A stretch of DNA of 23,286 bases, taken from positions 1 through 23,286 of the IMG/VR virus record IMGVR_UViG_3300009506_000199. One strand, 5' to 3'. Shown piece by piece: positions 4,566 to 20,049 of the stretch. The first letter of the stretch is position 1, and each line of letters begins with the position of its first letter. The notes under the pieces are model-generated. The model did no database searches. It worked only from the letters and a program-made list of their open reading frames with translations, and was not told the origin of the DNA. The stretch comes from a virus. The position numbers were made by a program, and so were the translations under genes.

Positions 4566-4823
4566 ATGAAAACTTATATTGCGGTTATCCATAGAGAAAA
4601 AAATAATTTTGGTGTATCATTTCCTGATTTTCCAGGATGTGTAACGGCTACGAATAAAATTAGTGAAATACGAGAATTAACCTTAGACGTACTTCAATTA
4701 CATATTGAAGAAATGGGATGTGATTCTGAAAAAATTCCTGAACCAACGAAATTTGAACAAATCAGCAAAAAATATATTAATGAAGATGTATTCTATATTA
4801 CCGTCCATATAGATTTGTTTTAG
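4566..4823 (+). CDS. HicB-like antitoxin-fold protein, 85 aa
   Basis: The N-terminus MKTYIAVIHREKNNFGVSFP followed by DFPGCVTAT is the hallmark of the HicB partial RNase H-like fold. In HicAB toxin-antitoxin pairs HicB neutralises the mRNA interferase HicA and represses the operon. Here the helix-turn-helix or ribbon-helix-helix C-terminus is not evident, the end being strand-like (EDVFYITVHIDLF), and no HicA with its short double-stranded-RNA-binding-like fold and conserved His is encoded next to it. Solitary HicB-type proteins are common in phages and may neutralise host HicA toxins. The family call rests on the N-terminal half. Confidence 0.8.
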   Translation: MKTYIAVIHREKNNFGVSFPDFPGCVTATNKISEIRELTLDVLQLHIEEMGCDSEKIPEPTKFEQISKKYINEDVFYITVHIDLF

Positions 4824-8106: not shown

Positions 8107-8229
8107 TTGACTAGTTTAGAAAAAATATTAATGATTTTTTTGTCGATCTTAATTGGCGTTTTGTTGTCTCCTCTATTTTTTACAATTTTGATTATTTCTA
8201 TAAATTATATTCTAAAGTCGTATTTTTAA
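8107..8229 (+). CDS. Putative single-helix membrane protein, 40 aa
   Basis: From TTG 8107 the frame reads (M)TSLEKILMIFLSILIGVLLS and ends ILKSYF; from ATG 8131 it gives a 32-residue version. The body is one long hydrophobic helix with a positively charged C-terminus. No ribosome binding site is visible for either start; coupling to the 7936 stop, six bases upstream, is possible. The composition is far more hydrophobic than chance translation of AT-rich DNA usually gives, though poly-T tracts inflate such scores. Confidence 0.4.
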   Translation: MTSLEKILMIFLSILIGVLLSPLFFTILIISINYILKSYF

Positions 8230-8254
8230 AAATAAATTTTTTTTATTATAATTT

Positions 8255-8296
8255 GAACGTATGTTCAGTTGTTAATAATAAATATTTGTGTTAAAT
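8255..8296 (+). promoter_or_regulatory. Box-type promoter P3 (GAACGTATGTTC)
   Basis: Perfect GAAC-N4-GTTC box (8255-8266), two bases, TTGTTA (8269-8274), 16 bases, TTAAAT (8291-8296). Same spacing as the promoters at 126, 1605 and 10348. GGAGGAATAAAATG follows at 8311-8324. Confidence 0.65.
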
Positions 8297-8321: not shown

Positions 8322-8385
8322 ATGGGAAATTTTATATAGAATGTGTATTGTAGCTATCTTGTTCGGTACTGTTTTGACTTTGTAA
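8322..8385 (+). CDS. Very short ORFs behind a consensus ribosome binding site
   Basis: GGAGGAA precedes ATG 8322, which is followed by only five codons (MGNFI, stop TAG 8337-8339). One base later ATG 8341 opens a 14-codon hydrophobic frame (MCIVAILFGTVLTL) to TAA 8383-8385. This could be a membrane microprotein with a leader codon set, a frameshifted microprotein, or a leader for the G/T-rich RNA that follows. Confidence 0.3.
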
Positions 8386-8545
8386 AGGCAAAGTTGCGTA
8401 TGGTAGAGTGTAATAAAGTAATGTAAATGTATTGTTGTGAATCGTATTGTTTAGTTGTGTGATGGTGTTGTAGTGTATCGTTTAGTTAATGTGAGGTCTG
8501 GTCACGTTAAGATATGGCTGTGTTGCAACGGTATTGAGCCGTTCA
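8386..8545 (+). repeat. G/T-rich, C-poor block with ~5-base period (left)
   Basis: The plus strand is almost free of C and shows a degenerate five-base rhythm, for example AATGT ATTGT TGTGA ATCGT followed by ATTGT TTAGT TGTGT (8424-8458). It contains GAGGTCTGGTCACGTTA (8492-8508), echoed in the right block, and ends with a hairpin AACGG/CCGTT (8527-8543). It has no ORF. It lies in the 5' leader of the 8578 gene, downstream of promoter P3. Confidence 0.55.
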
Positions 8546-8577
8546 GCTAAGTTTATAAATCAAAAGAAAGGAAAAAA

Positions 8578-9180
8578 ATGGAAACTATCAAAGTAAAAAT
8601 TACATTAATTGATGAGATGTTAGGATCTCTTCCAAACAACCAAGAGGTTTGGGAAACCTATATCGCAAAAAACGCACCAGACAGAAAGTCTTTAAGAGAA
8701 GAGATTGAAATGTTTGGTATTGATGCAACAGCAGAAAAAACGAAAACTATTTTTTTTAGGAAAGATGGCGAACCAGTTATATTGGATTATCAAATACGAG
8801 GCCAATTTAAAAACGCCGCTAGTATGCTGTCGAAATGCCAGGGAACAGAATCATCTAAATTAAAAGCATTTAAAAAAACAGTCGATGGTATGGTTTTTGT
8901 TTATCCGAGGACCATAAAACTGAATTTGCCCAAAAATATAACTGTAGGAGTGTGTCAGAGACCATTAAGGGCTTCGACACCGCAAGGAGAACGCGTCGCT
9001 TTAGCCTTTTCAGAAACGGTACCGGAAGGCACGTGGTTTGATATAGAGATTAATTACTTGCCTTTGATTAAAAATGATCTTAAAAAATTGATTTTAGAAT
9101 GGCTCGATTATGGAAAATTGAATGGTTTAGGACAATGGAGGAATTCCGGTAAGGGAAGATTTGTTTACGAAATATTGTAG
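8578..9180 (+). CDS. Conserved phage protein with glycine-rich C-terminal loop, 200 aa
   Basis: I recognise the sequence pattern as a family seen in phages and prophages of anaerobic Gram-positive bacteria, without a settled function. Landmarks: N-terminal strand TIKVKITLIDEMLGS; KTIFFRKDGEPVILDYQIRG with FKNA (about 57-80); YPRTIKL; CQRPLRASTPQGERVALAF (126-144); and the end WLDYGKLNGLGQWRNSGKGR (176-194). A G-x-G-x5-G-x-G-x-F loop next to the C-terminus resembles the glycine-rich loop of RAMP-fold RNA-binding proteins (Cas5, Cas6, Csm3), and the strand/helix order would allow a ferredoxin-like fold. This comparison is inference, not homology shown. A G/T-rich five-base-period block flanks each side of the gene. 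Start supported by AAAGGAAAAA at 8567-8576. Confidence 0.75.
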   Translation: METIKVKITLIDEMLGSLPNNQEVWETYIAKNAPDRKSLREEIEMFGIDATAEKTKTIFFRKDGEPVILDYQIRGQFKNAASMLSKCQGTESSKLKAFKKTVDGMVFVYPRTIKLNLPKNITVGVCQRPLRASTPQGERVALAFSETVPEGTWFDIEINYLPLIKNDLKKLILEWLDYGKLNGLGQWRNSGKGRFVYEIL

Positions 9181-9365
9181 ATGTATGGTACAGAAAAGTA
9201 CAGTGATGGTATTGTAGTGTGCCATGTCGTTTTGTTTTGTTAGTGTGAAGCGTTGTAAAGAAAAGTAAATGTAAGGTCAGGCACTGTTATGTTGTGCAAA
9301 GCAAAGGCGATATTCGGCAATGTGATGTAAATGAATTGCGTAGTGTAGTTGCGTAATGTTTAATG
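9181..9365 (+). repeat. G/T-rich, C-poor block with ~5-base period (right)
   Basis: Begins at the stop codon of the 8578 gene. It again shows a loose five-base rhythm (ATTGT AGTGT GCCAT GTCGT, then TTTGT TTTGT, 9211-9240) and contains GTAAGGTCAGGCACTGTTA (9269-9287), similar to GAGGTCTGGTCACGTTA in the left block, and TGATGTAAATGAATTGCG. No ORF. It forms the leader of the 9411 gene. Confidence 0.55.
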
Positions 9366-11578: not shown

Positions 11579-12256
11579 ATGAACGCTTCAGAAGCAAAGA
11601 AAATAATGAAAATGGGCGATACGTTTTCAAAATCAGAATTAAAAAAACAGTTTAGAAAACTATCATTAGAAAAACATCCTGATACTGGAGGAAGTTCCGA
11701 GTTGTTTATACAATTGGAAAAATCATATAAAATATTAGAATTTATAGCGATAGCGAATTATACTGACAACGAAGAATTGTTTATTAGTGGAAAAAACATA
11801 AAAGAATACGGATGTGGTTTACCAAATAATGTTAATGCTAAGACGTGCGAAAACTGCAATGGATTAGGCTATAAACAATTTGACAATTATGAATTTTGTT
11901 ATTGTGAGTGTGAAAAATGTCAAGGTACTGGGGTGCATTTTTATAAATGTAAAAAATGTTATGGAACTGGAATATATTTTGGAATTGGAAAAACAAAGGG
12001 TTGTAAATGCAAAAGCTGTAAAGGTACTGGTAAATTTTTTCCAAAATATAATTCTAAGCTTCCACCATCAATTTTTATAATTGATGGTGTAAAAACAAAA
12101 GTAAATAGATGTGAATTGTGTCGTGGTAGTGGAGAAATATTTGGTAGACGCAAAACAAAATATTATTTATCATGTGATATGTGTGACGGTATTGGCGAAA
12201 TACAAATATACAATCCTGTATTGCCAAAAGGATTGTTGATAGATATAAATACATGA
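11579..12256 (+). CDS. DnaJ-like cochaperone with six CxxCxGxG repeats, 225 aa
   Basis: Residues 14-55 form a J-domain (ELKKQFRKLSLEKHPDTGGS) with the HPD tripeptide at 33-35 that stimulates DnaK ATPase; helix I is poorly conserved. Then come six zinc-finger repeats: CENCNGLG (90), CEKCQGTG (111), CKKCYGTG (124), CKSCKGTG (144), CELCRGSG (178) and CDMCDGIG (199). Cellular DnaJ has four, so this protein has three potential zinc sites instead of two. The two C-terminal substrate-binding beta domains and the G/F linker are missing. It may redirect host DnaK to phage assembly or replication. GAGGAG at 11567-11572 precedes the ATG. The stop overlaps the 12253 start as ATGA. Confidence 0.88.
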   Translation: MNASEAKKIMKMGDTFSKSELKKQFRKLSLEKHPDTGGSSELFIQLEKSYKILEFIAIANYTDNEELFISGKNIKEYGCGLPNNVNAKTCENCNGLGYKQFDNYEFCYCECEKCQGTGVHFYKCKKCYGTGIYFGIGKTKGCKCKSCKGTGKFFPKYNSKLPPSIFIIDGVKTKVNRCELCRGSGEIFGRRKTKYYLSCDMCDGIGEIQIYNPVLPKGLLIDINT

Positions 12257-18345: not shown

Positions 18346-20049
18346 ATGAATGATTTTAATGAAAAAGTTTTAAAGAAAGTAAAAGCGGAAGTAATAGAAA
18401 TAAGAAAATATTTAAACACACAATCTAAATCTACTAAGGCTAATGATGATCCGCTTGTCACTTTAGGCGAATCAGGAAAAATAATAGAACCCCCTTTCGA
18501 TCCGTTTTCTCTAACGCTTCTAATAGAAAGATGTACTGAACTTGGTCCGTCAATAGAAGCGATGGAGATTAATATAGACGGATTTGGTTATAGATTTGTA
18601 CCAAGAACAAAGAGCGATCCCAGATTAGAAATACCAGAATCTATTAAAAAAGAAATAAAAAAAGAAAACATAGAATTACAAAATTTTTTTGAAAATTGTA
18701 CTGACGAATCTTTTGTTAATTTTAGACGAAAATTAAGAAAAGATCTTGAAATAACCGGTATGGCTTATTTTGAGGTGATAAGAAGTATTACAGGAACAAT
18801 ACAAAGTTTTGTACACATACCTGCTTATCAAGTAAGAATAGGCAAAAAAGATAATAAACCAATATTAGCGAAAAAGAAAATTTATGAATTACAAGAAAAT
18901 GGTTCAGTAAAAATAAAAGTTGTTGAATATTGGACTAGATTTCGAACATATGTTCAATCTAGATTGCAAACAAGACACAATTTGGAAATTGTACCAGGTG
19001 ATAAATTAGTTTGGTTTAAAGATTTTGGTGATAGTAGGATATTAAATAATAAAACTGGTGAATTTGATCCTAAAACTAATCCAGATGATTATGCTAATGA
19101 AATGATTTGTTTATCTTTGTATTCTGCTAGAAGTTCTTATGGATTACCAAGATATATTGGATCATTATTGTCTATGTTTGGTGATCGCGCTGCTGAAGAA
19201 ATAAATTATAACACATTTCAAAACAATAACATTCCATCAATGGCTTTATTGATTTCAAACGGTCAATTAACTGACGGCTCAATGGCTAGAATAAATAGTT
19301 TTTTAGAATCTCAAGTTCAAGGTTCAAATAATTATAGTAAAATTTTATTAATAGAGGCTGAAGGTAGTGATGAGGGCGAGGAAGGGAATCAAGTTAAATT
19401 AGATCTCAAACCTCTATCTAGAGAGCAACATACAGACGCGTTGTTTCAACAATATTCTAAAAATAATAAAGAGAATATTAGAAAAAGTTTTAGAATGCCA
19501 CCAATTTTTATTGGTTCTACTGATGGATATAATAAAAGTACCGCAGATATATCAAGAAGAATAACAGACGAACAAGTGTTTGCTCCTGAAAGAAATGAGT
19601 TTGATGCGTTAATAAATAGGAAAATTATGCCTGAAATAGGAGCAATTTATCATAGATTCGTTTCTAATTCGCCTAATACTACAGACAATGAACAACTTGT
19701 TAAAATGTTGGCTACTTCGGAAAAAACTGGTGGGATGACACCATATATAGCAAGAAAAATGTTAGAAGAAATTTTAGGAAGAGATTTGCCTGAATTTAAA
19801 GAAGAATTTGATCCGCATGTTCCATTTTCTCTTACCATGGCCGAAGCAGTAAAAAATAAAGCCGATCCTACAGAACCAGGTCAACAGGTTACTGCATTAA
19901 AGGCAAATGATATTATATCAGCAATAATAAAAATTGCTAAAAATCTTAGAGAACACGATCCTATTATAGATCATTTGTTAGAAATTCAAAAAATTGCCGA
20001 AAGAGAATGGACTAAAAATTTAGAAGAAGAACATGAACATGATGATTGA
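18346..20049 (+). CDS. Portal protein, PBSX-type, 567 aa
   Basis: Dodecameric head vertex channel for DNA. Position after the large terminase and internal landmarks fit the phage portal family: DPFSLTLLIERCTELGPSIE near residue 52-71 and AMEINIDGFGYRF in the clip/wing side; DLEITGMAYFEVIRSITGTI; VWFKDFGDSR with YARSSYGLPRYIG-like segment; SREQHTDALFQQYSKNNKEN and IRKSFRMPPIFIGSTDGYNK in the stem/crown side. The C-terminal tail is acidic and His-rich (EEEHEHDD). Longer than many HK97-type portals but normal for PBSX relatives. AGGATAAAAA precedes the ATG. The end overlaps the 20033 gene. Confidence 0.92.
   Translation: MNDFNEKVLKKVKAEVIEIRKYLNTQSKSTKANDDPLVTLGESGKIIEPPFDPFSLTLLIERCTELGPSIEAMEINIDGFGYRFVPRTKSDPRLEIPESIKKEIKKENIELQNFFENCTDESFVNFRRKLRKDLEITGMAYFEVIRSITGTIQSFVHIPAYQVRIGKKDNKPILAKKKIYELQENGSVKIKVVEYWTRFRTYVQSRLQTRHNLEIVPGDKLVWFKDFGDSRILNNKTGEFDPKTNPDDYANEMICLSLYSARSSYGLPRYIGSLLSMFGDRAAEEINYNTFQNNNIPSMALLISNGQLTDGSMARINSFLESQVQGSNNYSKILLIEAEGSDEGEEGNQVKLDLKPLSREQHTDALFQQYSKNNKENIRKSFRMPPIFIGSTDGYNKSTADISRRITDEQVFAPERNEFDALINRKIMPEIGAIYHRFVSNSPNTTDNEQLVKMLATSEKTGGMTPYIARKMLEEILGRDLPEFKEEFDPHVPFSLTMAEAVKNKADPTEPGQQVTALKANDIISAIIKIAKNLREHDPIIDHLLEIQKIAEREWTKNLEEEHEHDD

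Follow-up and report, generated by a model that had tools for sequence, protein, structure and literature searches.

RAMP proteins hold RNA in a glycine-rich loop of the pattern GhGxxxxxGxG, and target ribonucleases of the Csm3/Cmr4 type present a catalytic Asp at every sixth nucleotide. Short-period reading of RNA is also known from TRAP, which recognizes (G/U)AG repeats at ~5-nt spacing, 11 of them round a ring; in type III toxin–antitoxin systems (ToxIN), near-identical ~36-nt repeats with a pseudoknot are cut by the toxin. The Cas7 proteins of class 1 CRISPR systems polymerize on RNA into helical filaments in which every sixth base is flipped out, and they bind the guide without sequence specificity (PMC11127173). 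The phage-encoded RNA anti-CRISPR Racr mimics the host CRISPR repeat, recruits host Cas6 and Cas7, and supports the assembly of a Cas7 filament with eight or nine subunits (PMC10651486).

Here we describe a phage locus that resembles each of these systems in part. The window, that is, the whole stretch of DNA analysed, is an entire virus record of 23,286 bases with terminase, portal, head and amidase genes, and the gene at 8578 lies in it between two G-periodic non-coding arrays (Table 1). With type VII Cas7 (8yhd, 8yhe, 9j9e) and type III-A Csm3, the 8578 protein shares its predicted fold, its size of ~200 amino acids and the C-terminal loop GhGxxxxxGxG. Unlike theirs, the phage loci come without CRISPR repeats or a repeated sequence unit in the arrays (13,829 units parsed), and without recurrent cas5, cas6, cas10, cas14, adaptation (cas1/cas2) or nuclease genes within 5 kb; moreover, the proposed phage step is 5 nt rather than the 6 nt of Cas7, and the phage RNA would carry a base-specific rhythm over up to 1.7 kb. 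Racr is alike in that a phage-encoded RNA would serve as the track of a Cas7 filament, and unlike in that here the phage supplies its own Cas7-like protein and the arrays have neither a conserved segment nor a fold beyond controls, the features by which repeat mimicry is judged absent. As in TRAP, an oligomer would read a short motif at ~5-nt steps in otherwise free RNA; the fold, however, is unrelated, and the phage arrays have 12–300 units in a row and a single G in place of the triplet. The likeness to ToxIN lies in a protein gene adjoining a repetitive non-coding RNA on the same strand, and the difference in the lack of near-identical tandem repeats and of structure in the phage arrays.

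Table 1. Features of the G-periodic locus in the window
Feature	Position	Strand	Basis
Palindrome GAACGTATGTTC, SOS-box-like operator 5′ of the left array	8255..8266	.	Sequence match
Left G-periodic non-coding array, 38 units, GTNNN dialect	8361..8555	+	Unit parse; composite z 7.2
RAMP gene, 200 aa, solitary Cas7/Csm3-like product (predicted); glycine-rich loop at residues 183–195	8578..9180	+	
Right G-periodic non-coding array, 35 units, GTNNN dialect	~9183–9362	+	Unit parse; composite z 10.0

The initial annotation had described the flanks of the gene as nearly C-free, with a period of ~5 nt, and as unlike the rest of the phage. Autocorrelation revealed that Gs on the coding strand of both blocks recur at intervals of ~5 nt, with a lag-5 signal far above shuffled sequence. 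GT pairs at lags 5, 10, 21 and 26 occur 15, 13, 12 and 13 times in the left block (8386–8545) against ~5 expected, and the right block (9181–9365) has GT excesses at lags 5, 10 and 26 (p ≤ 0.002 in both blocks, except 0.026 for lag 10 of the right block); GT pairs at lags 5, 10, 21 and 26 thereby reach ~2–3 times the expectation from dinucleotide-preserving shuffles. The composite score over lags 5, 10, 21, 26 and 31, with 5,000 dinucleotide shuffles as control, was 0.287 for the left and 0.366 for the right block, and its maximum across 8,904 other 160-nt windows of the phage, both strands included, was 0.123, below half of the value of either block. Periodicity and distinctness thus held up, with a period of 5.15–5.17 nt rather than exactly 5; C is indeed low but present (8–9% per block), and the block limits were roughly right, the real extent being slightly greater (Table 1). 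The sequences GAGGTCTGGTCACGTTA / AAGGTCAGGCACTGTTA, pointed out as common to both blocks, belong to a longer block-to-block alignment, and because only 7 of 500 phase-preserving shuffles reached such an alignment, the two blocks may be old duplicates. The left array includes 6-nt units such as GTAAAT, GTGATG and GCAACG, and the right one starts at the stop codon of the 8578 gene and ends before the following gene.

Further elements of the window were noted alongside. The GAACGTATGTTC box adjoins a promoter-like match (8225–8252, its TATAAT ending at 8252), and promoter matches around 8255 are no commoner than chance. The SOS-box-like palindrome GAACNNNNGTTC is found at 1605, 8255 and 10348, and also at 18944, within a gene; the first three sites, which have a common extension GTTCAGTTG and AT-rich context, are probably a common operator of this phage, for LexA or its own repressor. 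SOS control was rejected as a general feature, the 8255 box being present in 1 of 164 loci, and so was a 3′ hairpin, GAGCCGTTC, which is common to the window and locus L080 and present in only three arrays. Dispersed direct and inverted copies of TGTACCAGATCTGAGCCACG lie between small genes (54–1112, 1298–1322 and 2357–2393), some of them forming long hairpins (1043–1112). Positions 4566–4823 hold a gene for a HicB-like antitoxin, and 11579–12253 encode a DnaJ-like protein that has a zinc-finger part and matches anti-TRAP weakly.

No Rfam, Pfam or PHROG family covers the gene or the array: Pfam and PHROG searches with the 8578 protein, and an Rfam search at the arrays, found no match. Single-sequence searches with the protein, the earlier of which returned nothing, reached only four human-gut phages (45–49% identity), and the profile built from an alignment of these four relatives was needed to open the family. 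With this profile, IMG/VR gave 244 relatives, of which 80 were retained, and GTDB genomes gave 46; the final collection comprised ~200 homologous loci with 164 distinct proteins, the majority from Clostridia and Coriobacteriia phages and prophages (hosts by genome records mainly Clostridia, 37, and Coriobacteriia, 5); a plasmid search found no homologue. The 8578 protein was assigned from AlphaFold2, Foldseek and profile comparisons. Its AlphaFold2 model (pLDDT 88.6, pTM 0.83) matched type VII Cas7 first in the PDB (Foldseek E 1.5e-9, TM ~0.57–0.60) and Csm3 next, and all 50 PDB matches listed were CRISPR effector chains of the Cas7/Csm3/Cmr type. The 113-member profile matched type VII Cas7 (E 4e-4) and Csm4 (E 0.01), while PADLOC Cas7_IIId matched 39 of the 113 members and NCBIfam Csm4 matched 29. 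By its predicted ferredoxin/RRM-like fold the protein is a RAMP, in agreement with what had been proposed from its C-terminal loop. That loop, GLGQWRNSGKGRF, fits the RAMP pattern (GLGQWRNSGKG, basic residue included), and among the 113 members G183, Q186, W187, N189 and G193 are invariant and G185 and G191 at least 90% conserved. Asp35, a candidate catalytic residue, is likewise at least 90% conserved in this set. The name 'Cas system-associated RAMP superfamily protein' is already attached to the best BFVD match (50% identity); the protein had therefore been labelled previously, the array not. One homologue, L192 (IMGVR_UViG_2857989793_000001), seems to have its RAMP gene broken near the C-terminus, with a second match containing TGA.

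Comparable flanks were found at practically every homologue, so the suggestion in the initial annotation that G-rich repeats lie beside this family in other prophages was correct, and the pairing is near-universal. Across the 400 nt downstream of 129 homologues, G autocorrelation amounted to 0.12–0.27 at lags 5, 10, 15/16, 21, 26 and 31; within the genes themselves there was none (lag 5: −0.04). When 1.59 Mb of distinct loci were scanned on both strands with a strict finder, 149 of the 164 loci (distinct proteins) had an array no more than 300 nt from the gene. Four of the 15 others end at the contig end; the array overlaps the stop codon in L118, L006 and L028, lies 0.6–0.7 kb downstream of the gene in L013, L191 and L030, and is short and visible by eye in L124, L126, L040 and L064. 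By scan and inspection, L051 is the sole untruncated locus with no array, and provides a natural experiment on whether the protein functions in the absence of an RNA of its own; an intrinsic terminator stands immediately 3′ of its gene. The reverse search, in which the DNA pattern of the array alone was run against IMG/VR, found the protein at 38 of 43 arrays in which 6-nt units had the proper share (31 newly met), compared with 4 of 77 stretches without an array and none of twelve simple tandem repeats lacking 6-nt units. Five loci have an array and no protein in the stretch examined; L293 and L217 may be cut off, and L245, L271 and L313 may have a more distant protein. Extra arrays of the same grammar and strand occur in L103 (1631–2521 and 10527–10834), L104 (13389–14067), L036 (2870–4401), L183 and L198, up to kilobases from the single RAMP gene. 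The almost exceptionless pairing points to an undescribed RNA–protein assembly of phages without a CRISPR system; searches of the open-licence full-text literature turned up no description of a G-periodic array, nor of a lone phage Cas7-like protein that comes with an RNA of its own, and prior work elsewhere is possible.

Parsing of the 13,829 units revealed a consistent grammar. Arrays have a median length of 434 nt and a maximum of 1.7 kb, and 83.7% of their units measure 5 nt and 15.2% measure 6 nt. The longer units recur every 26–36 nt, most commonly 31, and mostly follow four to six 5-nt units, and G autocorrelation stays coherent beyond 124 nt, with maxima at 31, 62, 93 and 124. They are not mere slips, since they have a consensus of their own, GCAANG and then a further G, in which C reaches 0.74 and A 0.67, compared with 0.48 and 0.35 at these places in 5-nt units. 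The Gs are most faithful in the two units after a 6-nt unit (0.99 versus 0.90–0.97), which gives the array module a direction. Unit sums follow a renewal process: the interval from one 6-nt unit to the next shows no correlation with the one before (0.008), and every 6-nt unit resets the count. We therefore rejected a rigid duplex-DNA phase, in which 5.17 would be half a helical turn: the variance of N-unit length keeps growing and the intervals are uncorrelated. Depending on the phage, G is followed by C, A or T and rarely by another G; this dialect, which is T in the window phage, is common to both flanks of one phage (r 0.71–0.95), and also tracks genome G+C (rho −0.5).

The Gs are moreover under selection. 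Between close relatives, in ungapped homologous segments, 23 of 1,260 phased Gs (1.8%) and 435 of 5,212 other bases (8.3%) had changed, so that change is ~4–5 times rarer in the Gs (p 4e-20, for pairs that are partly non-independent); within 6-nt units, both Gs changed in 0.4–0.5% of cases and the free N in 22.5%. On the protein side, association with the T (U) dialect is strongest for residues 184 and 182, both at the glycine-rich loop: Thr184 is found in 8 of 17 T-dialect proteins versus 1 of 133 others, and Arg182 in 0 of 17 versus 87 of 133, the independent pairs being few (~3 of 7), of the same direction and alone not significant. Strand specificity, selection on the Gs and covariation of the RNA-binding loop together provide good, if indirect, support for the earlier proposal that the protein binds or processes the repetitive transcript.

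Arrays follow the gene in strand, GCAANGG occurring in them 976 times on the strand of the gene and 4 times on the opposite one. They lie downstream in 93 cases, upstream in 41 and on both sides in 16, and their direction still follows the gene despite at least 21 upstream/downstream switches on the protein tree. Typically they span the intergenic space from stop codon to next gene start, and this filling, together with the matched strand, is the behaviour expected of a transcribed element. Apparent antisense arrays were dismissed: minus-strand blocks are either ordinary tandem repeats without 6-nt units or shadows of GC-type arrays, as GC is self-complementary. Intrinsic terminators, seen by eye after some arrays (two in L036, and in L125 and L014), were set aside as a feature, the automatic count being unconvincing (7 sense and 4 antisense of 174; 7 of 551 random windows).

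It is conceivable that the array acts as DNA, one strand being coated as ssDNA in, for example, a replication or recombination element, much as DnaA reads trinucleotides at bacterial origins. Such a role would suit a strand-specific short-period motif, the presence of a single RAMP gene per phage or genome, and the proximity of SSB, RecT and YqaJ genes. Recurrent neighbours within 5 kb comprise SSB (at 40 loci), RecT and the YqaJ recombinase (~10 each), a C5 methylase, repressors, an antirepressor, an integrase and unknowns, and are the early region of temperate phages. We nevertheless consider it unlikely, given that the predicted fold is that of RNA-binding RAMPs, that direction always agrees with transcription through all positional switches, that the intergenic space is filled, that some phages (L103, L104) have several arrays kilobases apart, and that unit-sum variance rises linearly, which disagrees with a rigid helical phase as in duplex DNA.

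The bases between the Gs might alternatively be guides, each G being flipped out and the four remaining bases of a unit pairing with a target. Cas7 folds are compatible with this, and array content turns over faster than the gene, as guides would: segments are replaced and indels occur, some of 31 or 36 nt, in arrays whose gene is still 91–99% identical. However, complementarity with the Gs masked (five masks, both strands) gave 2 matches versus 2.5 expected in DNA of related phages and host contigs (1.39 Mb); an antisense use of the transcript, as once suggested, gains no support from this comparison. Unrelated arrays were found to share no segments, and the loci have no recurrent nuclease or Cas neighbour, which leaves a guide function improbable. 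Autoregulation or an RNA antitoxin, in which the array would be a sink restraining the protein, perhaps a Csm3-like ribonuclease acting through Asp35, in the manner of type III toxin–antitoxin systems, is just as improbable: the RNA lies in cis to the protein gene, Asp35 is conserved and arrays of up to 1.7 kb would hold very many protein copies, but the arrays have no fixed repeat unit or processing fold of the type III antitoxin kind (folding energy z 0.07 versus phase-preserving shuffles and −0.53 versus dinucleotide shuffles, as for coding DNA), the placement of Asp35 in a Csm3 active site is an assumption, and most arrays would be unable to act on the start codon since the downstream position is commoner.

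We favour, with a probability of about 0.68, a CRISPR-independent ribonucleoprotein in which a Cas7-like RAMP polymerizes on its own G-periodic transcript as a track. The fold, the array grammar, the near-obligate pairing on one strand and the selection on the Gs are what the analysis shows; from these we infer that the ligand is RNA, that each unit takes one protomer and that the product is a filament. The locus would yield two co-transcribed parts, the solitary Cas7-like protein and a long non-coding RNA that lacks structure. Each 5-nt unit, G-H-N-N-N (H being any base other than G), would be one binding step and probably one protomer, which would read the G and in part the next base through a pocket that demands G and accepts a non-G after it. 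The 6-nt unit GCAANG would mark a register step after 4–7 of the 5-nt steps, ~31 nt accommodating ~six protomers. In this way a helical filament of the Cas7 type, tens to hundreds of protomers long (~84 per transcript for the median array), would come to cover the protein's own transcript and leave the bases between the Gs free. We also lean, by a modest measure, towards a class of phage ribonucleoprotein filaments in which a Cas7-like protein reads single Gs at a 5-nt step and the RNA is a polymerization ruler rather than a guide. It belongs to the same joint reading, and seems to us slightly better than an even bet, that this ruler RNA conserves no information other than its rhythm, a register mark at 31 nt and a dialect that fits the protein. 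Several points run counter to the proposed filament: identical protomers do not explain the extra nucleotide about every 31 nt, one member (L051) has no array, and known Cas7 steps by the sixth nucleotide without sequence specificity (PMC11127173), whereas the step proposed here would be of five and G-specific. As to function, a role by bulk (titration, blocking, scaffolding) is preferred over one by sequence, because the bases between the Gs are unconserved and no complementary target emerged in the DNA compared; there are weak grounds to suggest that the filament, made early, might for instance titrate or block a host RNA-binding or defence factor.

This type of locus is frequent in gut and environmental phages, and the pairing is so regular that a single expression experiment would test it. 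If the proposed assembly is true, widespread phages harbour Cas7-type filaments apart from CRISPR, and selection can act strongly on rhythm alone in a non-coding RNA, which thereby escapes homology and structure searches. It would further serve as a simple model for protein assembly timed by RNA sequence, be relevant to the origin of Cas7 backbones, and name a function of many gut phages of Clostridia.
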